Made by a program: the position numbers and the translations under genes. The notes under the pieces are model-generated. The model saw only the letters and a list, made by a program, of their open reading frames with translations. It searched no databases and was not told the DNA's origin. Below, in pieces: positions 18,138 to 60,197 of a stretch of 64,000 bases of DNA. Every line of letters starts with the position of its first letter. Position 1 is the first letter of the stretch. Source of the stretch: a virus; IMG/VR virus record IMGVR_UViG_3300049793_000123, positions 1-64,000 of that record; one strand, 5' to 3'.

Positions 18138-19211
18138 TCATTTTATTGGAGCAGGCGTTCCGCCGCCCGCAAGTTGGTCCGCATATTCTCCAACCAGAAA
18201 CCGAAATGCCATTGCGGCGCAGAGTGGCACTTGTCCATTTCCAATGGCTGCAAGTCGGTCGCCCCGATTGGCCATCCCATGAACCACTCGACCCACTGCG
18301 GGTTCAGCGGACCACCAAGAAGGGATTTGTAATCCTCCTCCGACAACCGCGCCTTCAGCGCCTTCCGGGAGTTCGATCCTCCGTCCAGACCGTGTCCCAT
18401 TCCGCTCATTGGGGTTGCGAGACGAATTGGAATCCGATTCAATGCCGTTGCAAGCCCATCCCCGCTGTGCGCTGACGCTCCTTTGCGGTTGTAATTGCCG
18501 TGAACGGTCACAGTTGGAAGACGTGTCGCATCCTTCCACTTGCCTTTCTGCGCCATTCCCACAAGACTCAATCGAACAGGACTGTGATCTCCGACGCTCT
18601 TTTGTTGTGAGTGGCTCCCTGCGGTCGGCGTTGGGAAGTGTAGCCCCAATCCACATTCGGTTTCGGAAGTGATACAACGTCGGAGGGCCAGCAATCCAGA
18701 TGGCATCAGAAGCGCCGAGACAGCACCACTCCGCATCGTACCCCAAGCTGGCAAGATCACCGAGGACCAATGCGAGTCCCTTGGTTCGGAGTCGCGGAGA
18801 GTTTTCCACGAACACGATTGGAGGCAGAACCTCGGAAACGACGCGCTTGAACTCGGACCAGAGGCCGCTGCGGGGGCCTTCGATTCCAATACCTCTTCCG
18901 GCTTGCGAAATATCTTGGCAAGGAAATCCCCCTGCAACCACATCGGAGAGTCCTTTGAATGGTTTCGCATCGAACGCTTTGATGTCGCCAAAAACTGGAT
19001 GCCGGTCGAAGACGCCATCTTGTTGTCGTTGGAGAAGGACACGCTGGCAGTAGGGGTTGATTTCGACTGATCCAACGGTTCGGTGGCCGAGGATTCGGTC
19101 GGCGTATATTCCGCCGCCAGACCCCGCAAAAAGGTGGAGAGTTCTGAGTCGTCGAAGTTCACGCTTAGCATGATTCCCTCCCTCTGCGTCGGCTAGCGCG
19201 TCGATGCTCAT
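18138..19211 (-). CDS. dcm: DNA cytosine-5 methyltransferase
   Basis: A 357-residue protein that transfers a methyl group from SAM to cytosine C5, probably protecting phage DNA from restriction. Motifs: I, LFAGSGGG (27-34); IV, GFPCQDIS with catalytic Cys98; VI, FVENSPRL (135-141); VIII-like, FRNRMWIGA (182-190); IX/X, WWSAEPAVGRVVHGMANRGDRLAAIGNGQVP near the end. The stretch around 195-270 is low in conserved features and may hold the target recognition part. The gene ends one base before the helicase start. The same DNA is open in a second frame (18143-19171) that also shows conserved motifs. Confidence 0.9.
   Translation of the reverse strand: MSIDALADAEGGNHAKRELRRLRTLHLFAGSGGGIYADRILGHRTVGSVEINPYCQRVLLQRQQDGVFDRHPVFGDIKAFDAKPFKGLSDVVAGGFPCQDISQAGRGIGIEGPRSGLWSEFKRVVSEVLPPIVFVENSPRLRTKGLALVLGDLASLGYDAEWCCLGASDAIWIAGPPTLYHFRNRMWIGATLPNADRREPLTTKERRRSQSCSIESCGNGAERQVEGCDTSSNCDRSRQLQPQRSVSAQRGWACNGIESDSNSSRNPNERNGTRSGRRIELPEGAEGAVVGGGLQIPSWWSAEPAVGRVVHGMANRGDRLAAIGNGQVPLCAAMAFRFLVGEYADQLAGGGTPAPIK
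18143..19171 (-). CDS. Overprinted ORF in the dcm gene (phage methylase-associated protein)
   Basis: A 342-residue frame fully inside dcm, shifted relative to it. It has no stop codon in 1,029 nt and carries what I recognise as conserved motifs of a phage protein family usually labelled 'DNA methylase': HFPTPTA, VHGNYNRKGASxxSGDGLAT, and LNPQWVEWFMGWPIGATDLQPLEMDK near the C-terminus. The last motif and the GMANRGDRLAAIGNGQVP motif of Dcm are encoded by the same bases. Its function is unknown. Confidence 0.6.
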   Translation of the reverse strand: MLSVNFDDSELSTFLRGLAAEYTPTESSATEPLDQSKSTPTASVSFSNDNKMASSTGIQFLATSKRSMRNHSKDSPMWLQGDFLAKIFRKPEEVLESKAPAAASGPSSSASFPRFCLQSCSWKTLRDSEPRDSHWSSVILPAWGTMRSGAVSALLMPSGLLALRRCITSETECGLGLHFPTPTAGSHSQQKSVGDHSPVRLSLVGMAQKGKWKDATRLPTVTVHGNYNRKGASAHSGDGLATALNRIPIRLATPMSGMGHGLDGGSNSRKALKARLSEEDYKSLLGGPLNPQWVEWFMGWPIGATDLQPLEMDKCHSAPQWHFGFWLENMRTNLRAAERLLQ

Positions 19212-19227: not shown

Positions 19228-19431
19228 TTACTTGTTATCGTCCAAAAGGCCGCAGTGTTGGAAATGCAGTGGAGTCTCGGGCAGAGGCCCGTAACGGTTC
19301 TTGGTGATCTGAACGAACGGACCTCCTGAAATCGGAATACAAACCATGCTGGCCATCATGACAGCCTCTTGAGCGTAGTGTTTCATCGAACTGTCTTGGT
19401 TGTAATCGCGCGGTTCGAGAATGATTTTCAC
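19228..19431 (-). CDS. Small hypothetical protein
   Basis: A 67-residue protein, MKIILEPRDYNQDSSMKHYA..., in ATGA overlap with the MazG-like gene upstream. Mixed alpha/beta composition; no motif recognised. Confidence 0.55.
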   Translation of the reverse strand: MKIILEPRDYNQDSSMKHYAQEAVMMASMVCIPISGGPFVQITKNRYGPLPETPLHFQHCGLLDDNK

Positions 19432-25064: not shown

Positions 25065-25856
25065 TTAAAGACCGAGTTTGATGGTGGTGAGAATAGGTGA
25101 ATCGTTGTTGGGCCGATAGCTATCGGTGGTGATGATCGACTGGAAGTGTTTCTCCAAGACCGAGAAGCCTTTGGAGAAAAGCCCATGGGAAACTATGAGT
25201 GTAAGGTGCGCGGGCTTGATCTGTTCAGCAATCGCAATGAAGGTCGCGCCGCCGTCGCACAGGTCGTCAATGATGACGCAGTTGCGAAACTCGCACTTTC
25301 CAGGCTCCAGCACTTTCAGGGTGATATTGCCGTTCGACAGGTCACGGACCTTCTGGCAATAGACCACATCGGTGATGTTTGGATTCCACTCCAGATACTT
25401 GTCAGCCTTCTTCACCGCGCCAGCGTCAGGCACGATCAACACGGCGTTTGGCTTGTCGTAGGATTTCACCAACCGGCTGTTGTTGTGGTTCTTCGCGTTG
25501 CGAATCAGGAGCGCGGCCACATCGCTGTGGGCATCGAACAGATTGACCCGCTCAAAACCGCAGGAGTTCACGGCGTTCGCCACGACCTCCAAATCCACGG
25601 AGTCACCCAACTGCATGAGGCGGTCGAACCGAGCGCCCATTAAGTAAGGGATAACCAACTCCTTTTTCTTGGCCCAAGCGTGATCCAACGCGTTGGCGAT
25701 TTCCAGCAACTGGACCAATTCCTGGCTGGACCGAATTGGGCACACAACGCACACCTCATCACCGGCAGCGATGTCCTGCAACTGAACGTGCGGATGATTA
25801 TCCGGGAACAGCGTCAGCTTGATCCGCTCCAGCGTGTAAAGGCTGATGTTTTTCAT
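25065..25856 (-). CDS. Prs-like (phosphoribosyl/ADPR pyrophosphokinase) protein
   Basis: A 263-residue protein of the ribose-phosphate pyrophosphokinase fold. It shows the PRPP-type loop VIIDDLCDGGATF (residues 194-206), the N-terminal YLMGARFDRLMQ region (like YxxxARQDR) and NLFDAHSDVA. Standard Prs is about 310 residues, so this is a short phage type. In NARP1 the enzyme of this fold (Adps) pyrophosphorylates ADP-ribose instead of ribose-5-phosphate. It overlaps the Nampt-like gene by 4 nt, so the two are co-translated. Confidence 0.8.
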   Translation of the reverse strand: MKNISLYTLERIKLTLFPDNHPHVQLQDIAAGDEVCVVCPIRSSQELVQLLEIANALDHAWAKKKELVIPYLMGARFDRLMQLGDSVDLEVVANAVNSCGFERVNLFDAHSDVAALLIRNAKNHNNSRLVKSYDKPNAVLIVPDAGAVKKADKYLEWNPNITDVVYCQKVRDLSNGNITLKVLEPGKCEFRNCVIIDDLCDGGATFIAIAEQIKPAHLTLIVSHGLFSKGFSVLEKHFQSIITTDSYRPNNDSPILTTIKLGL

Positions 25857-27307
25857 GCGATCAAACGCGCCCGGATTTCAGCCAAGGTGGTCTCGCGGGT
25901 GATCTTGCCATCCAAGAACACGGTTTGGAGTTCGCCTTGAGCCTCGCCAATGAAACTCACCTTATCCTCCAGCCGGTAACGCCCGCCATCCAAGTGGACG
26001 CGCAGCAGGCCGGTGGCGGATTTCTTTGTTCCGTCGTCCGTGACGGGCTCCTTGAAGATGTCGTGCCGCGTCCCGTCGATGACCACACTGGTGGCCTTCA
26101 TGGCGGTTCCAAACGTGTCCCGGGTGTTGTATTGGTAGGTGAAAGAACCGATTCCAAAGACAACCTGCGAGGCGAATCCCTTAGCCTTCAGTTGTTCGCA
26201 GATTTGCGTGGCCCGATCCATCGTGATGCTGTCGCCGTAGATGGCCCCGATGTGCGAATCAAGCAGTTTGTGACCGGTCGCCGTGATGGTTCCACCAAAG
26301 ACGTTCCACAGAAGCTCCACAACGCCTTGGCGAGCCGCCGGATGCGAGGAATCGGGATCGCCGCAGATAATCTTCACCGGGTCACCTGAGTCGGGCCGTA
26401 TGACCACCTTGCCATTGCGCGCCATGATCTCAGCTTTCAACGCCGGAAGGAACTCGGTGCAGACTTTCCACAAGTCCCATGTGTCCGAGACGATGGACAC
26501 AATTCCGGCCGGGTAGATGCGCGTGATGAGTCGTCGAAAGGTTTCAAGCTCGCCATCCTTGTGGCCGCTGCACATCACACTGTGCTCGGTGGCTGGGACA
26601 CTTCCGCCAATCAATTCCTTCTCACAGTTCGCGCCATAATATTGCTCCAACGCGTCGATGGCCGGGATGGAATCGGTGCCGGTAAACGACAACAGGTGGC
26701 CCATTCCGGAAACGAAAGCGCTCTCCAGTGAACTCATTCCGCGAAAGCTGAAGTCGTGTCCCTGCCACTGCACAAACTCCTTGGCCATACCGGTTTCAGC
26801 CGCGTAGCGATCCAGAATCTTGCGGTATTCGTAGGCGATGGTGGCAGACGTGCAGGCTTTCCAGATCGCCGTGGAGAGGATGGTCTCGATGAAGTTGGTG
26901 AGCCAGTAAAACTCCGGCAGCGTGTTGATGATGGTGAGGCACGGCACCCGCATCGGGACTCGCGATCCCTCTGGCAGCGCCTTGATCTTGATCGGCAGGA
27001 AGCCGAGGTCATGTAACGCCTCAAGGTGGGAGTAGCTCGGCAAGTCACCGCCAAGCGAGGTTGTGATCCGGCGCTTGTATTCCGCCATCACCTCGGCCTT
27101 TGGGCGGTGGAAGAAGTTGGCGTTGAAATACTCCAGCAAGTACGCCTTCATGAAATACTGAAGGCCAAAGAACACCATCTCATCAACCCCGGGTATGCGC
27201 GACTTTCGAGGCGTGAGGTTGGAGTAAACAAACTCGGTCTTGTCTGGATACTGAAAAACGTGGGCGACCTTGTAAAAATCGGTGAGTAGGAATGGGTTTA
27301 TTTTCAT
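25853..27307 (-). CDS. Nicotinamide phosphoribosyltransferase-like protein
   Basis: A 484-residue protein, the normal length for Nampt/NadV. Landmarks: FLLTDFYKVAHVFQYP at the N-terminus, FSFRGMSS, SVPATEHSVM, VVIRPDSGDPVK, ITATGHKLLDSHIGAIYGDSI and FGIGSFTYQYNTRDTFGTAMKAT. It condenses nicotinamide with PRPP (or ADPR-PP in NARP1, where the enzyme is called Namat). The operon with a Prs-like partner fits NAD+ reconstitution. The gene is first of the pair and follows a 34-nt gap. Confidence 0.85.
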   Translation of the reverse strand: MKINPFLLTDFYKVAHVFQYPDKTEFVYSNLTPRKSRIPGVDEMVFFGLQYFMKAYLLEYFNANFFHRPKAEVMAEYKRRITTSLGGDLPSYSHLEALHDLGFLPIKIKALPEGSRVPMRVPCLTIINTLPEFYWLTNFIETILSTAIWKACTSATIAYEYRKILDRYAAETGMAKEFVQWQGHDFSFRGMSSLESAFVSGMGHLLSFTGTDSIPAIDALEQYYGANCEKELIGGSVPATEHSVMCSGHKDGELETFRRLITRIYPAGIVSIVSDTWDLWKVCTEFLPALKAEIMARNGKVVIRPDSGDPVKIICGDPDSSHPAARQGVVELLWNVFGGTITATGHKLLDSHIGAIYGDSITMDRATQICEQLKAKGFASQVVFGIGSFTYQYNTRDTFGTAMKATSVVIDGTRHDIFKEPVTDDGTKKSATGLLRVHLDGGRYRLEDKVSFIGEAQGELQTVFLDGKITRETTLAEIRARLIA

Positions 27308-51689: not shown

Positions 51690-54600
51690 ATGCCACAAAT
51701 TGCAGAGATCGAAGGGATTGGAAACGTCGAATTTGACGACAGTTTCACACCGGACCAAATAGCCGACAAGGTTAAGAACGAGGTCATCCCGCAGTTTCAA
51801 AGGCGCAAGGCGCGGCTTTCCCAGCTTACTGCCGAGCGGGCTCAATTCGAGAACGAACAGGCCACAAGGAGTCCATCACTCAGCGACAGGATGGGTGCGG
51901 CCACCATCGCGGCACTGGATCAAGGTCCGTCTGAATTCCTGCGACAGGGCTATTCGATTCTGGAGGCTGGATCACGCCCATTCAGCGCGTCAGACAGCCA
52001 AATCTTCGCACGCAAGGCTCAAGCCGCGAGGGCAGACGTTCAGCGCGCCGCCGAGGAGGCCCAGACACTTGATCCTTCAGCGACTGGCCGGGTCGCTCAA
52101 ACCGTTGCCTCTACGGCCACATCCTCCGCGCCACTGATGGCAGCCTCGGTCGTGGCCCCCATATTGGCTGGCCCAGCGTTGGCCGTGAAGGCTGCCGTGG
52201 GCGCAAGCGCATTGGCCGGTGCTGGACAATCCTTTGGCGCGGTCTTCAACGACGCCAAGAACACCTACATGGAGCAGGGTTTGTCGGAGGACGAGGCCGC
52301 CCGGAGATCATACGTGCCCGCCATTGCGTCCGGGGCGTGGACTGGCGCTCTGACATCAGCCTTCGGTGCCACGGGTATTCAGGCCATCGCGAAAGGATTC
52401 GGCAAAGAGTCGGCCAAGGCCACATTCATTGGTATCCTCAGAAACGCCGCGCCCGAGGCTGTCCACGAGATGAGCGAGGAGGGTTTGGACCAGCTTGGCC
52501 AAGGCTTTGTCGAGCGCCTCACCTTCAACCCCAAGAAGACCATCGCCGACATCGCGGAGGAGACGCTCATGGCGGGACTGGCTGGCGGTTTGCTAGGTGG
52601 CGGGGCCAATGTTGGGTTTGGGTTGGCTGGAAAGGCTTCAGAAGCCGTGGATGCCGGTCGCACCGCATTCGACCAACGCCGATTAGCAACCGCGTTCCAA
52701 AATGAGGAGGCTGCCACGGATCAAGCGAGTGCGGCCCGCGCTCTGCGAATGTCAGACCGTTCGGCGGTGCAGGCGTTGGACCCCAATCGTTCCGCGCAAT
52801 ACTTCGCACCGAGGCAAACTCCAGTTCCGGGGAATTCGGTCGAGACGCAGCGGAATTTCGCACAGCCCGGTCCAGCGAGCGCACCACCTTCTCAAGGCCA
52901 GATGTCCTTCGTCCTTCCCGACGAGGTTCGAGCGCAGATGGCACAGCAGCTTCAGACGCCTAATTTGGTGGCTGAGATTGCGCCGCCGCCAGTTGTCATG
53001 GAATCCTTGGTTGCCGCCGCTCCAACTACCGAGCAATCCTCGGCAGTTGCCCCACCAATTGCACAACCATCAACTGAAACTGCCGCCGTCCCGGTCGCGG
53101 AGACGGCGACCACAACCCCAACCCAAACTGCCATCGCTAATGATCTCCAAGACATCTCAGGGCTACGAAGTGAAATCCAGCCAAGGTCGACCACTCAGCA
53201 AGAAGAACCTGTCGCTCAAACAAGCCAAGAAGCGGCTCCAAATCGTGGAATTTTTCAAGCACAAGAAGCAGTCCAAACACCGCCCGCTGTAGCCAATGGT
53301 GTGTTCTACCGATCTGGAATCACATCATCGCGTGAGGGGGTTACCTATGTGGCTGATGATCCAACAGTTGCTGCATTGTTCGCAGAAGGTGGTGAGTTTG
53401 GGAGGCCGGGAGCAAAGCTTGAAACACTGCGTGGTAACCTGAAGATTTTCGACAGCCGATCCGCATCACCGGAGGAAACTTTGCACATATTGGGCCGCAA
53501 AGCCCTTAAATATGTGGAGCCTGATGGGTTGTTGAATTTCACCGGTTTCGAGGGTGACCCATCCATTCGCCAAAGATTGCAAGAAAGCGGTTACGACGCG
53601 ATCCGAATATCGGAGGGTTCAAATGGAAATTCAATCGCGGTTTTGAATGAGAGTTTTCCAAAGCTTTCATCTGGATCAAATCCGCCCGTTGTAACCACCG
53701 AACAGCCACACGGATTCGTCTCTCTGGTGGATTTCAATTCCAGCGCGTTGAACCCAAAGGTTGGAACGGCATTCGATGTCGATCTCCCAGATGTTTCCAC
53801 GCCCGGAAACATGGTAGCGCTGGAGCAACGACTGTTAACTGGCGCACGTCAATCATCGGCACAAGGCTCAAAACGCAGCATCACGCACAAGTTCCTCGCG
53901 GTGGTCGATAACAACGATGGGCAGGTTTATTTGCTTCCGGTTTATGAGGACACCAAGAGTGGATTCGCCAACACAGTCGCCCCAAATGCGGCTGGCGAGC
54001 CTCGTGGCCAGAGGTTGAGCCGTGTGCTTGGTGAGAAAAGCGCGGGAGACATCAGCGAGCCACGCTACGAGGTCTTGGAAGGCGTCCGCCTCAAGAATCC
54101 GGCGCGCACATTCCCGCGCACGTTCACCCGCGAGGAGTGGAGCCAGATTCGCAGCGACGCTTTGGCTGAACAGGAGGCCACGACCAACAAGCTGGTTGGA
54201 GATGTGGAACCCGCCGAAGGATTGATCGACACACCGACTGCTGCGGTGGTTGAGGCGGTGATCCCGCCGGGCCACTTGGCCGAGCACGATCTGCGCGAGA
54301 TTTTCCGACTGTATCAACAGAATCCTGAACTGAAGGAATTCGCCACGGCGGCATCGCCAATCATTCAAGCCATCGAGCGCGAGGAGCGCACGGTTTGGGA
54401 GCCTGCCACATTCGCTCAGCAATTGAACGCTGTGCTGAACGCGAGGCCGCAGACATTCGACCAGTTTTACGACACGTTTGACCCGAGTGGTTACGCGGAA
54501 TGGAAGGAGCGAACGATTCGCAGCAACCGGTCCAAATATGCGGGTGGACCTCCGGTTTCTGGCACAGCGATTCCGCAGACTCCCGGGCTTCCGACCACCT

Positions 54601-57600
54601 TCGCCACACCACAAGAGGCCATCGACTTTCTCACCGCGCCCGGCTCGCCCGTGGCCAGCAACGTAGGCAACGTTCTGGTGGCTGCATTAACCGATCCTGC
54701 GCTCCAAAAATCGCTGGGGGCACTTGGCTTCAAACTGTCGGTTCAAAACGCGGCTGTGAGCCTTGCAGAAGGCGCAACCACCGGTCGCCATGCCGCCTAT
54801 GATCCTGTTACTGGCACGGTCTTGTTGGCGCTGGGTATCCGTGATGCCGAGGCTGGTCCGCACGAGTTGGCTCACCATCTGGAGACGTTGTTGCCACAAG
54901 CCGACCGGAAAGCCTTGGACAATGCTCGTCAATCAGCGATCTCCAAGGAGCTTCGGCGTGCTGATCTTACTGCCGAACAGCGCGCTTTCCTTGAGGCGCT
55001 TCGGGCCGGTCAGAAATCCTCCGCTTGGTTCGATTCCCAGTTCCAATCCATTGGTCCAGCCATTGAGGAGTTCTACCCGCTGATTAACACCAGTGAGTTC
55101 TTCGCCAAAGGATTCTCGGAGCGGTATCTGAACCGGATCAACGCGACGCATCAAGAGCGCGGCCTGTGGGGGCGCATCAAGGAGATGCTGAAGCGGGTCT
55201 ATGCGTGGCTGAAGGACCGCGTTGGACTGACCAGCGCGCAGGATGCCGCGTTCCAACGGCTGATCTCTGGTGATTTTGAGGTCACGGCTCGGAATGGGAT
55301 GCTGTTTGACGATGGCGGGTTGTCTGGGTCGGCGTCCCACGTCTTCACTTCCTCGCAAGAAGTGGCTGACCGTGCGGGGGCCGTTGACCTCACGCCGGAT
55401 CAGGTGGCTGGAATCTCGCGGGTGGCTCAGGCCCAGACCTCCATCGTTCCACAGGCTTTCACCGCGCAGCTGGATGCCCTGAATTCCGATACCTCCACGC
55501 CGGAAGGAGTGGCCAAGCGAGAACTGGGATACCTGTCGGATATTGGCAGCATCAATGCGGGTGTTCCGACGCCGCAGCAGTTGGCCACCATGCCAGCCAA
55601 CACGGAGCAAGAGCTTCTGGAACGGGAATCGGCTGCTGACGCCGCGATCAGGCATTACCAAACGGTGGATGATATTCGCAGCGGTCTGTCCAATAAGATG
55701 CAGAAGGCATCGGAGGAACTGGCCAAGGCGGTGAAGAAGATTCCGGCGCGCAACAAGGCGGAGGCTCAGGAAGCCATGCTGGCGGCTATGAGCGACCGGC
55801 TGTTGACTGGTTACAAGCAATACTTGGCGGATCAGGCGGCGTTGACGGCTCCCAATTCAACGATCCAAGGACAACGGAACGCGCTGTTGGAGGCGATGCA
55901 GCGTCGGGTGGCCGATGCCGAGATCACGCCGTCGTCCATCCGCAAGGCTCTTGAGGCGATCAGTCTTCACATCCCGGATGTTGTGCTGAATGCGGCCAAA
56001 GACCCGCACGACATTCTGGTGTGGGTTCAACAGAACCCCAACTTGCTCAATGGGGTTATATCCCAATCGGTGCAGGACTTCCTGACTGACACCATGGGCG
56101 GTCCCACGGGGCTCCAGTTTCAAGGCTTGGCGAATCCGACCAATCCATTTGGATCGCAGCAATACTTCATCACCAAGTCCCCCCTTGAATTCAAAGGCAT
56201 CATCGAGCAGTTGAAAGGTATGCGCGCCTTGCGCCAACAGCAGGACGCCACGCTGAACTCGGTCAAGAATTTCAAGAGTTGGTTTTCCGGTGGTGGCAGG
56301 CCGACCGTAGTTGGCTCGGACGCCTTCGCCCGCGCCTACTACCGATACCGCTCCAAGCAAGAGAAGGCCGCTGCCATTGTATCGGCCATCGACAAGGACA
56401 TCGCGCATTGGGACAACGAGATTCGCGGCCTGCTGCTTGCGGAGCAGCATTTGGACGCGCTGCGATCCACGCCTGAGTGGCAGGCTGGGCTGACACTGGC
56501 CTCCAATCTTGGTGACGTGATGATGCGGGATGTGGAGCGCGCCGACCCACGTACTGGTGTCACTGAATACATCGGTCCAATCACTGGCGAAAAATTCTAC
56601 GTCAACCTGTCCCCGGACGCCGATGTGGAAAACGAGAACATGACATCGCTCATGAAGCTCGTTGCTGAATTTGACCAATTCGCTGCTGACCCAAATTCGG
56701 ACCCGGTGCGCAAGCGAGATGCGGCGAAAAGAAGCGCATATTTGAAGCAGTACAAACTGCGCCCCGACTTCAACCCGGATGCCGGGACCATGGTGAATTA
56801 CTGGGATGTTGGCCCTGGAGTGCAGGTGAAGATTGATCCCATTGGCACGTTTCGTCGTGTCCTTGGTGGCTTGCCATCGACCATGAACCACGAGCTGCGT
56901 TCGTTGGCAGGTCGTGCCGCCACCGACGCGCTGCAAGTGGCCCAGCAGGCCGATCAGATCGAGCAGTATTTGGAGACGCTCCAGAACAACGCGGATCACG
57001 GTGGTAAGGCCATCAACATCGCGTCGGTTCAGGCGGCTCAGGCGCACGGTTACCAAGGCAACAAGGGTGTGTTGCTGTGGGAGCGAGACGTGCTCAACCC
57101 AATCCTTGCTTCAGGGCAGTCGTTTGGCTCTCCGGTGCTGAAGGTCGGAATGACCCTCCCCACATCGGGTAAAGTGGTTATCCAGTCCGACATTGATGCC
57201 ATCGAGAAGATGAAGGCGTGGAACCGTGACGTGCTGAAGACTGCGCAAGGCGCTCCCGAGAGCCGCACCGCGCGATACTTCAACCCGGTCCAAGTGGTGG
57301 ACGAGACTGGCAAGGTGAACCGGAACGCTGTTGGTAGTGGAGTTTACACCATGGCTCGCGCTCCATCCCGGTGGGGTTTTGAATTCAGCCAAGAGTGGAA
57401 ACGTGCTGGCAACGATCTCCAGCGTGTCGGGCTGCTGCGTGACCCGGTGAATTTTCAGCAAGCTGTCCTTGGCCGCATCGCTGAACAATCTTCCGAGTTC
57501 AACCAAGGCCGATTGGGTCCAGTGTTCGCGCAGATGGCGTCGGAGATGAAGAAGGGCCGTCGTTACAACACGATGGACGACGTGCTGGACGACATGGCTA

Positions 57601-60197
57601 ACCGTATGGTTGCCGCGAGAATGGCACCCAATTACGCCACGGCGTTGAACGAGGCCAAGCGTGACTTGTTCTCGGCCATAAACAGCGATGTGGCAGCCAT
57701 CGACAAAGTGTTTGGCGATGCCAATAACAGCCACGACCGGAACCGACCTGACAGCCTGATCGACGTGGTGACCGCTGATAATTCTTTCACCAAGCCTCGC
57801 CAAGGATTGGTGGCCCCATCCACCTATTTCGACTACTCGATGGCCCAGAATGGGCGCAGGGCTCAATTCACCAATAGCCTGCGCAATGTCATGCGGCTGC
57901 GCGAGGTCGAGGCCATGCAGGGCGTGCTGGCCCAATTCCGTTCAGCCAAGCTCGACTTCGACAACCGGATCAAGGCTTTGGAGATGCAGGGCAAGACGCC
58001 TGCGCAGGCACGTAAACAGGTGGGCAACGAGTCACGCGCAGAGCAACTGGCTGGCAAGCGCCATGTGGACCTCTACGAGTTGGAGAAGACCATCAAGTCG
58101 CTGGAGAGAATCTTGAGCGAGACGGAGCGCATCGCCTCCCTGCGTGATGACCATTTCGATGGGGCCTTGATCCAAGGACTGAACAAGACCCGCGCATTTC
58201 TTGGAACGAGCTTGCTGGCTACCGCTGGATCGTCGGCTCGTAACACCTTCGGGTCTGGATTGGTGCAGGCGACACTGAGCCGGATTCTGGGTCGTTCGTG
58301 GCACGAAATCCTGCGCAATGTGGCGACGTTCGGAAGGCATATTGGAAAATCCTTGGCCCTGCAACTGACTCACGCTACCGTCGGAAATCCCAATCTTCAT
58401 CGGATGCTCACACGGAACGCCCCATTGCTCGCCAAGGTGACCAGCGGGATTGCGCAGTGGGCCAATCAATGGGAGAAGATTCAGGCGCAGATGGATGAGA
58501 TCGGAGTGTCGCCAAACACGCAGATCATGCAGGCCGTGAAGCTGCGCGGGATGCTGCCGGAGACCGGTGGAAAAATCACCACAGTTGAGCCGGGCGCGAT
58601 TGCGAATCTGGCCACGGCCATTACCACGCTTCCAGGAATCAGAAAGTTCTCAGTAGGTGGAAGGGTGATTGGCGAAGGTGCTAAGGCCATCTTCCCGGGC
58701 TTCTTCGACCGCGCCATCAACGCTGGGGCAATGGCTTTCTGGAATGGCGAGGAGGCTGCGCTGAAGGCCAAGGCTTTTGAGGCTTTCGCGCGCAAGGAAT
58801 CCATCAACGGCCCGGGCTGGGATGACCTGACCAGGGGTGACAACTTGCTCCAGCCGTCGGACCTTGGAACCAACCACCTCGGGATGAAGCAATGGCGCGA
58901 CAACTTCGCCTCTGTTGGCCTGATGGATCGCGTGCTTTTGGACTGGTATAACAAAGTGAAGAACCTGCCTCCCGATCAGCGCGCCGCAGTGCCTATCCTC
59001 GCGCCCGAGGAAGAGGCTCAGGTTGCATTGGAGCATCTCAAGACCGTCAACGTCGGCACCGAGACCAATCGGCCCACGTTCAGCAAGGGTAGTGGAATTG
59101 GTGGAACGGTGCGCCAAGCACTGGGCCAATTCACCGGTTTCCCGTCCGAAATCCTGAACCTCATCAGCAGGCTGGAAAAGCGTGGAGGAAAGGACTCTGG
59201 AAACGCTGGTCGTTATGCCCTGCACATGGCTGTCCTGACGCTGCTGGCCATCATCATTGGTGGCGCAGGAAATGAGTTGGCCAAGTGGCTGAACCGGGCG
59301 ACCACTGGCGAGGCAACGTCGGCGGTCGGGCTGGAGAACATCACGGACGCCAACACGGCGCTCCGCTGGCTGGCCACGGCGCTTGGAACGGTGGTGCCTG
59401 GCGTTGGTGAACCGCTCTCGCGCGTGCTTGGTGGCACGTCCAACAAGCCGCTGATGGACATCACCCAGTTGACCCCGTTGTTTGGTGCCACGGCGGACGC
59501 GGCGATGGCGTTGCAGAAGATCGCGCAGACACACGAGTTCGTTTACCCGGTGGCTGATTTTGTTCGGAGATGGGTGCCGTTGGCCAAGCCCGCGTTACTG
59601 TTGATTCCGGGAGCACTGGGAGACCAAGCCGCACGCAACGCCAACCGTGCCGTCACCGCCGCAGTGCCTCCTGAAATGGAACCGCGCAAGCAATCTGGAG
59701 GTGGAGCGCCGACGCAAACTCCGATGACTCCAATTCTGCGCGATCTGATGGCCGCAGCCTACGCTGGAGATCAGCAACGTGTCGCCAGCCTGTATCAAGC
59801 GGCGGTGGAGGAGAAGCGCCACCAAGGCTCACCCGATCCAGAAGGCTCGGTCCTGTCGTCGATCCAGTCTCAAGTTCCGACCAGAAAAGTCTTAGGCCGA
59901 GTGCCAACCGCTGCCGAGGAGGCAACCATTCTATCGCGCATGTCAGGAACACAGCGGGCAGACTTTGAAAAGTCTCGCCGAGCGTTCGCGCTGCTTGAGC
60001 AAACTGTCGGCAAGTCGATTGCATTTACGAAGCGAATTCGGCCGACGGCTACACGCGCTCGTTCGCGAGGCTTGTTGGGTGGCGGTCGGTCTGTGCTGGG
60101 GCGGCGTCGCCAATCGTTTCCACGGCTTCGGCTGGGATCAGGCCGGTCCCGGCGCACAGTGGGCACGGGACGGAAGAAGCGGCGGGAGTTGGTGTGA
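51690..60197 (+). CDS. Giant polyvalent virion protein with ART-like and metallopeptidase-like domains
   Basis: A 2,835-residue protein. N-terminus MPQIAEIEGIGNVEFDDSFTPDQIADKV is of the type seen in podovirus internal proteins. Hydrophobic segments at about 147-190 and 2509-2531 could cross membranes. ART-like region at about 536-657 (VFYRSG...YVADDPTVAALFAE...GYDAIRISEGSNGNSIAVLNE). Metallopeptidase motif HELAHH (1058-1063) with a Glu at 1136. Many helical regions in between. The C-terminus from about 2785 overlaps a convergent gene and may be read-through. It probably enters the host with DNA; enzyme activity is inferred. Confidence 0.8.
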   Translation: MPQIAEIEGIGNVEFDDSFTPDQIADKVKNEVIPQFQRRKARLSQLTAERAQFENEQATRSPSLSDRMGAATIAALDQGPSEFLRQGYSILEAGSRPFSASDSQIFARKAQAARADVQRAAEEAQTLDPSATGRVAQTVASTATSSAPLMAASVVAPILAGPALAVKAAVGASALAGAGQSFGAVFNDAKNTYMEQGLSEDEAARRSYVPAIASGAWTGALTSAFGATGIQAIAKGFGKESAKATFIGILRNAAPEAVHEMSEEGLDQLGQGFVERLTFNPKKTIADIAEETLMAGLAGGLLGGGANVGFGLAGKASEAVDAGRTAFDQRRLATAFQNEEAATDQASAARALRMSDRSAVQALDPNRSAQYFAPRQTPVPGNSVETQRNFAQPGPASAPPSQGQMSFVLPDEVRAQMAQQLQTPNLVAEIAPPPVVMESLVAAAPTTEQSSAVAPPIAQPSTETAAVPVAETATTTPTQTAIANDLQDISGLRSEIQPRSTTQQEEPVAQTSQEAAPNRGIFQAQEAVQTPPAVANGVFYRSGITSSREGVTYVADDPTVAALFAEGGEFGRPGAKLETLRGNLKIFDSRSASPEETLHILGRKALKYVEPDGLLNFTGFEGDPSIRQRLQESGYDAIRISEGSNGNSIAVLNESFPKLSSGSNPPVVTTEQPHGFVSLVDFNSSALNPKVGTAFDVDLPDVSTPGNMVALEQRLLTGARQSSAQGSKRSITHKFLAVVDNNDGQVYLLPVYEDTKSGFANTVAPNAAGEPRGQRLSRVLGEKSAGDISEPRYEVLEGVRLKNPARTFPRTFTREEWSQIRSDALAEQEATTNKLVGDVEPAEGLIDTPTAAVVEAVIPPGHLAEHDLREIFRLYQQNPELKEFATAASPIIQAIEREERTVWEPATFAQQLNAVLNARPQTFDQFYDTFDPSGYAEWKERTIRSNRSKYAGGPPVSGTAIPQTPGLPTTFATPQEAIDFLTAPGSPVASNVGNVLVAALTDPALQKSLGALGFKLSVQNAAVSLAEGATTGRHAAYDPVTGTVLLALGIRDAEAGPHELAHHLETLLPQADRKALDNARQSAISKELRRADLTAEQRAFLEALRAGQKSSAWFDSQFQSIGPAIEEFYPLINTSEFFAKGFSERYLNRINATHQERGLWGRIKEMLKRVYAWLKDRVGLTSAQDAAFQRLISGDFEVTARNGMLFDDGGLSGSASHVFTSSQEVADRAGAVDLTPDQVAGISRVAQAQTSIVPQAFTAQLDALNSDTSTPEGVAKRELGYLSDIGSINAGVPTPQQLATMPANTEQELLERESAADAAIRHYQTVDDIRSGLSNKMQKASEELAKAVKKIPARNKAEAQEAMLAAMSDRLLTGYKQYLADQAALTAPNSTIQGQRNALLEAMQRRVADAEITPSSIRKALEAISLHIPDVVLNAAKDPHDILVWVQQNPNLLNGVISQSVQDFLTDTMGGPTGLQFQGLANPTNPFGSQQYFITKSPLEFKGIIEQLKGMRALRQQQDATLNSVKNFKSWFSGGGRPTVVGSDAFARAYYRYRSKQEKAAAIVSAIDKDIAHWDNEIRGLLLAEQHLDALRSTPEWQAGLTLASNLGDVMMRDVERADPRTGVTEYIGPITGEKFYVNLSPDADVENENMTSLMKLVAEFDQFAADPNSDPVRKRDAAKRSAYLKQYKLRPDFNPDAGTMVNYWDVGPGVQVKIDPIGTFRRVLGGLPSTMNHELRSLAGRAATDALQVAQQADQIEQYLETLQNNADHGGKAINIASVQAAQAHGYQGNKGVLLWERDVLNPILASGQSFGSPVLKVGMTLPTSGKVVIQSDIDAIEKMKAWNRDVLKTAQGAPESRTARYFNPVQVVDETGKVNRNAVGSGVYTMARAPSRWGFEFSQEWKRAGNDLQRVGLLRDPVNFQQAVLGRIAEQSSEFNQGRLGPVFAQMASEMKKGRRYNTMDDVLDDMANRMVAARMAPNYATALNEAKRDLFSAINSDVAAIDKVFGDANNSHDRNRPDSLIDVVTADNSFTKPRQGLVAPSTYFDYSMAQNGRRAQFTNSLRNVMRLREVEAMQGVLAQFRSAKLDFDNRIKALEMQGKTPAQARKQVGNESRAEQLAGKRHVDLYELEKTIKSLERILSETERIASLRDDHFDGALIQGLNKTRAFLGTSLLATAGSSARNTFGSGLVQATLSRILGRSWHEILRNVATFGRHIGKSLALQLTHATVGNPNLHRMLTRNAPLLAKVTSGIAQWANQWEKIQAQMDEIGVSPNTQIMQAVKLRGMLPETGGKITTVEPGAIANLATAITTLPGIRKFSVGGRVIGEGAKAIFPGFFDRAINAGAMAFWNGEEAALKAKAFEAFARKESINGPGWDDLTRGDNLLQPSDLGTNHLGMKQWRDNFASVGLMDRVLLDWYNKVKNLPPDQRAAVPILAPEEEAQVALEHLKTVNVGTETNRPTFSKGSGIGGTVRQALGQFTGFPSEILNLISRLEKRGGKDSGNAGRYALHMAVLTLLAIIIGGAGNELAKWLNRATTGEATSAVGLENITDANTALRWLATALGTVVPGVGEPLSRVLGGTSNKPLMDITQLTPLFGATADAAMALQKIAQTHEFVYPVADFVRRWVPLAKPALLLIPGALGDQAARNANRAVTAAVPPEMEPRKQSGGGAPTQTPMTPILRDLMAAAYAGDQQRVASLYQAAVEEKRHQGSPDPEGSVLSSIQSQVPTRKVLGRVPTAAEEATILSRMSGTQRADFEKSRRAFALLEQTVGKSIAFTKRIRPTATRARSRGLLGGGRSVLGRRRQSFPRLRLGSGRSRRTVGTGRKKRRELV

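Follow-up and report, generated by a model that had tools for sequence, protein, structure and literature searches.

A nested +1 reading frame in a phage cytosine-5 DNA methyltransferase gene, predicted to encode the second subunit of a split enzyme

The DNA analysed, referred to here as the window, comprises the first 64,000 nucleotides of IMG/VR record IMGVR_UViG_3300049793_000123, a 65.9 kb virus record from a tailed phage. The minus strand of the window carries a gene for a cytosine-5 (C5) DNA methyltransferase, whose product is termed alpha and whose frame is termed the Dcm frame. A second open reading frame (ORF), termed beta, is nested inside the alpha ORF on the same strand (Table 1). 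This nested frame of 342 codons had been pointed out in an earlier note made from the sequence alone, and both ORFs as well as the second-frame motifs quoted there (PTPTA, GNYNRKGASAHSGDGLAT and NPQWVEWFMGWPIGATDL) were confirmed. Beta is read in the +1 frame relative to Dcm, such that beta codon positions 1, 2 and 3 are Dcm positions 2, 3 and 1. Near the 3' end of the gene the same bases serve both proteins, as the earlier note had proposed for positions 18225–18300. The overlap is real and slightly wider than that, with motif IX of beta overlapping the Dcm tail WWSAEPAVGRVVHGMANRGDRLAAIGNGQVP located within 18204–18317.

Table 1. Positions of the two frames and their motifs in the window
Feature	Position	Strand	Remarks
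Alpha, Dcm frame	18138-19211	-	Putative C5-methyltransferase large subunit, 357 amino acids; from ORF list
Beta, second ORF	18143-19171	-	342 amino acids; recognition segment and motif IX; from ORF list
Alpha motif I, LHLFAGSGGG	19110-19139	-	
Alpha motif IV, GGFPCQDIS	18906-18932	-	Catalytic Cys
Alpha motif VI, VFVENSPRL	18789-18815	-	SWKT in beta from the same bases (18800-18811)
Alpha motif VIII to alpha tail	18318-18638	-	Variable linker in alpha; conserved recognition segment in beta (PTPTA, LPTVTVHGNYNRKGASAHSGDGLATAL, LATPMS)
Beta motif IX, LNPQWVEWFMGWPIGATDL	18251-18307	-	
Alpha motif X, GNGQVP	18225-18242	-	Both frames constrained here in relatives
Ribosome-binding-site-like GAGGGAGGGAATC and beta ATG (first base 19171)	19169-19185 (approximate)	-	Within alpha N-terminal coding sequence; putative role

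Alpha carries C5-methyltransferase motifs I–VIII and X, and its motifs I, IV (PCQ), VI (ENV/ENS) and VIII assign it to the C5-methyltransferases of PF00145. The PF00145 match (E = 3e-23) is confined to residues 23–169 and to the first half of the profile (positions 2–146 of 324), and the match to M.HhaI among Protein Data Bank (PDB) sequences is limited to residues 17–141. A longer match, spanning residues 15–339, was obtained with phrog_363 (E = 4e-50). Motif IX and a recognition domain were not found in the alpha chain, the PF00145 match ending at position 146 and motif IX lying in the +1 frame.

Beta matched phrog_1008, annotated 'DNA methyltransferase' (E = 1e-8, residues 51–306), as did all 104 members of the beta family, and matched the family beta profile over residues 104–326 (E = 4e-56). 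Against a profile of 103 relatives from which the window was excluded, beta scored 175.5 bits, compared with a maximum of 83 (mean 38.7, standard deviation 13) among 1,000 synonymous shuffles of the Dcm gene. Given a score so far above the shuffles, beta is not a shadow of the Dcm gene. The earlier note had recognised in the second frame motifs of another phage protein family; this family is not an unrelated one and represents the recognition segment and motif IX of the same methyltransferase.

The beta motif LNPxWVEWxMGWPxG was equated with C5-methyltransferase motif IX through a chain of comparisons. The beta profile aligned at motif IX with the C-terminal segment of actinophage C5 enzymes (hhalign probability 94, E = 1e-7), and this segment in turn aligned with motifs IX and X of Escherichia coli Dcm, at the right position although with weak statistics. 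The chain is completed by the enzyme of Propionibacterium phage PFR1, which has all motifs in one frame and matches PF00145 over residues 6–349 (profile positions 3–312 of 324). The predicted structure of the PFR1 enzyme matched M.HhaI from end to end (Z 22.2, root-mean-square deviation 3.7, 232 aligned), with segment 194–283 modelled at low confidence such that the fold of the recognition segment is not established by it. When beta was compared with E. coli Dcm directly, the sole alignment fell on Dcm motif IX and was not significant, and an hmmsearch of PDB sequences with the beta profile found no methyltransferase.

Queries with either protein against public phages and virus contigs returned loci with both frames open, and an alignment of second-frame proteins, used as query, added further loci from virus contigs and genomes. 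The loss of the frame among relatives that the earlier note had raised was not what these loci showed: from motif ENS to motif IX the second frame was stop-free in 185 of 186 loci, where synonymous shuffles of Dcm predict 21.4, and the +2 frame was open in none of 195. In the window itself, the conserved region of the second frame has no stop, whereas 1.9 would be expected after synonymous shuffling (P about 0.06 taken alone).

The frame on which selection acts was determined by counting differences according to Dcm codon position in 61 non-overlapping pairs of loci. In the first part of the gene the rates at Dcm positions 1, 2 and 3 (0.118, 0.058 and 0.262) are those of ordinary coding in the Dcm frame. 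Between motifs VIII and IX they become 0.359, 0.141 and 0.108, which corresponds to ordinary coding in the second frame, and here identity is 81% for the second-frame protein versus 56% for the Dcm protein. At motifs IX and X the rates of 0.146, 0.058 and 0.151 indicate coding in both frames. Within the recognition segment, Dcm position 1 was more variable than position 3 in 57 of 60 informative pairs.

Ratios of nonsynonymous to synonymous change (dN/dS) were obtained from isolated changes, each scored for its effect in the two frames, as simple counts over 40 pairs with a transition weight of 3 and not a full codon model. These were 0.07 for Dcm and about 0.28 for the second frame in the first half of the gene, 0.59–1.27 and 0.04–0.08 in the middle segment (motif VIII to the tail), and 0.08–0.18 and 0.07–0.16 at motifs IX and X, with the last ~90 bases constrained in both frames. 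In the enteric-phage group the frame-specific constraint is visible by eye. Along the gene, constraint thus falls first on Dcm, next on the second frame and finally on both, and the first ~110 residues of beta, which follow the Dcm constraint, are mostly passenger sequence. Neutral change in the second frame alongside a constrained dcm, which the earlier note had set against dual coding, is the reverse of the pattern in the middle segment; its dual-coding proposal is supported, with selection on both frames in different segments.

The arrangement of the window recurs in 196 of 214 loci, in which the Dcm ORF is uninterrupted and includes motif X while motif IX is read in the +1 frame. This count is biased by most loci having been found through second-frame queries; nearly all of the remaining loci are contig edges, or split or fused versions. 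Among loci found with Dcm queries only, the layout was present in 21 of 26, the others being split (L044), single-frame (L045), cut by contig ends (L047 and L048) or diverged (L046, with a +1 partner reading LPTPKA...LSPALSLHMMGFPPSW). Five of five further phages also showed the layout (Vibrio 1.291.O, Pseudomonas phPA-G, Lacticaseibacillus R9.1, a Porphyromonas phage and Paenibacillus Bloom). In total ~200 phage or prophage loci share it, among them loci from Proteobacteria, Firmicutes, Bacteroidota, Spirochaetes and Actinobacteria. A second frame standing alone was not found among the relatives; in the four loci that lack a Dcm N-terminus (L099, L115, L166 and L180) the match lies close to a contig end.

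Other layouts divide the same protein differently. In the split relatives (L004, L165, L205, L044, phiBT1 and mycobacteriophages such as Phanphagia 65/66) the Dcm ORF ends after motif VIII, and the second frame holds the recognition segment, IX and X. A different layout is found in Gordonia phage CheeseTouch and L224/L225, where IX and X belong to the Dcm frame and the LPTP segment to the +1 frame. The placement of most of the LPTP segment in the +1 frame is nearly constant across layouts; in PFR1 and Tweety part of it is joined to the Dcm frame. One relative (L222 642-2996, with the same match in L223) contains an apparent intein in the catalytic PCQ motif, the sequence reading GGSPC, then FVAGTSVLTHDG... 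to VVHN, followed by CQDLS.

Taken as a reading of the sequences, the locus is very probably a dual-coding gene for both subunits of one split C5 DNA methyltransferase (probability about 0.88). Alpha would be the large subunit, with S-adenosylmethionine binding, the catalytic PCQ and motifs I–VIII and X, and beta the small subunit, with the target-recognition segment and motif IX. Through binding to alpha, beta would contribute the small DNA-reading domain missing from alpha, and the two would form one active enzyme. Both frames would be translated, beta through its own initiation, which in the window may take place at the ATG given in Table 1. The phage would use the product as an orphan methylase, probably marking its own DNA against host restriction; a partial scan of the window genes recognised no restriction enzyme.

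Several observations weigh against this interpretation. The upstream constraint on the second frame (about 0.28) may stem from codon bias or the avoidance of stops, or the N-terminus of beta may have an additional role. AlphaFold2 gave a poor model of beta alone (predicted local distance difference test score 64.8, predicted template modelling score 0.34), Foldseek returned no PDB match for this low-confidence model, and beta has no Pfam match. The window also has no close relative, and selection on it is therefore deduced from the family together with the window-specific shuffle test.

How beta is translated is suggested by the start of the gene. In 119 loci the Dcm gene begins [ATG]TG-AAT-GAG, which creates a second-frame ATG 4 nucleotides downstream of the Dcm start; these loci are not independent, as they group into 35 clusters at about 70% identity. 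AAT is used at that start in 118 of the 119, while elsewhere in the same genes AAC outnumbers AAT by 489 to 235. Codons near gene starts tend in general to be rich in A/T. Between that ATG and ENS, all 119 loci are free of second-frame stops (20.8 expected), the figure for high-GC loci being 30 of 31. Together, the codon bias and the open frame favour initiation at this ATG. Other loci, in which the second frame becomes open only further into alpha, form a second group; several of them place an internal ATG behind a strong Shine-Dalgarno sequence (AAGGAG or TAAGGA). The window has its beta ATG 40 nucleotides inside alpha with GGAGG at a spacing of 5, a strong Shine-Dalgarno-like arrangement. 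In a large branch of phage C5-methyltransferases, dual coding is likely to be the general arrangement, with the recognition half coming from the second frame, often from an ATG 4 nucleotides after the catalytic start and through a shared ribosome-binding site. If so, the shared site would tie the amounts of both subunits together.

A programmed +1 ribosomal frameshift near motif VIII could instead fuse the Dcm N-terminus to the second frame in one chain, and in the split forms (L004, phiBT1 and Phanphagia) such a shift does yield a complete single chain with motifs I–X. However, a frameshift needs no open second frame upstream, yet that frame is open in every one of the 119 loci from an ATG whose codon is biased in all but one of them, and other loci place internal ATGs behind Shine-Dalgarno sequences. 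In genes of the window type the fused chain would also lose motif X. Frameshifting was therefore rejected as very improbable.

Separate initiation of two subunits is also preferred to the possibility, raised in the earlier note, that the overlap is the relic of a frame switch in which one frame has fallen out of use and one subunit has been lost. The layouts do differ between lineages (L018, L045 and CheeseTouch), but both frames are intact and constrained in nearly all relatives, and this explanation was rejected as very unlikely. Least credible is a by-product in which conserved Dcm codons yield long open +1 frames and motif-like words, for although SWKT and PARTS-like words do stand opposite conserved Dcm words (ENS and PCQDIS) and the upstream part of the second frame tracks the Dcm constraint, the recognition segment is near-neutral in the Dcm protein and strongly conserved in the second frame, the profile score exceeds that of every synonymous shuffle, and the frame-specific substitution rates refute it for the family.

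In bacteria and phages, few long overlaps on one strand are known for which selection has been shown in both frames. The present overlap is deep (~200 loci), concerns an easily assayed enzyme and is divided at a domain boundary, with catalysis in one frame and DNA reading in the other. The series of single-frame, split and overlapping genes makes the origin of overlapping genes testable.

Annotation is also affected, several database records giving one frame only. For Vibrio phage 1.291.O (L249 908-1606) and Pseudomonas phage phPA-G (L250 908-1636), the annotated coding sequence (CDS) is the second frame, labelled 'hypothetical protein', and the Dcm frame is unannotated. Gp9.1 of Streptomyces phage phiBT1 (L220 1224-2330) is annotated 'DNA methylase may be inactive', and an unannotated +1 frame contains the LPTP segment, IX and X. 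Judged by these motifs, gp9.1 and its +1 partner look like a split enzyme.

Elsewhere in the window, a 67-residue ORF (19228-19431, minus strand) directly precedes the methyltransferase gene, with its stop codon about 16 nucleotides ahead of the alpha start. A nicotinamide phosphoribosyltransferase gene (25853-27307, minus strand; phrog_448, E = 2e-199) is situated near RecE- and RecT-like genes, and an ORF of 2,835 residues (51690-60197, plus strand) probably encodes a virion protein.

Enzymes of this general kind have precedents in bacteria. In work from 1995, the small ORF of M.EcoHK31I was reportedly nested in the large one in another frame, and M.EaeI is said to be, like M.EcoHK31I, a two-polypeptide C5-methyltransferase acting on YGGCCR. 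M.EcoHK31I has motifs I–VIII and X on the large polypeptide and IX on the small one (PMC3404938), and the window locus likewise has I–VIII and X on one predicted chain and IX on another. M.EcoHK31I differs in that it is described as a bacterial enzyme, and its predicted recognition domain is in the large subunit. In the phage locus, by contrast, the segment from motif VIII to X is constrained in the second frame only, and the partial scan recognised no restriction enzyme beside the gene. M.AquI is also divided in two, with I–VIII on the N-terminal subunit and IX–X on the C-terminal subunit (PMC3404938). Its X thus accompanies IX, as in the split relatives L004, L165, L205 and phiBT1, whereas the window has X on alpha.

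Pairs of methylase CDSs with the same +1 overlap, both annotated, are present in GenBank (ORF28 in ORF29 of Escherichia phage K1ind2, 57 in 56 of Paenibacillus phage Bloom, and 65/66 of mycobacteriophage Phanphagia), and no explanation of these was found in the open literature searched. Alpha and beta proteins are held in phrog_363 and phrog_1008, listed as two separate 'DNA methyltransferase' families and not as two frames of one gene. A two-polypeptide C5-methyltransferase with a separate motif IX is of an already known kind. Within the open literature searched, the features that look new are how widely the arrangement occurs, the variety of layouts, the start site common to the two frames, and a recognition segment that is under constraint in the second frame and not in alpha.
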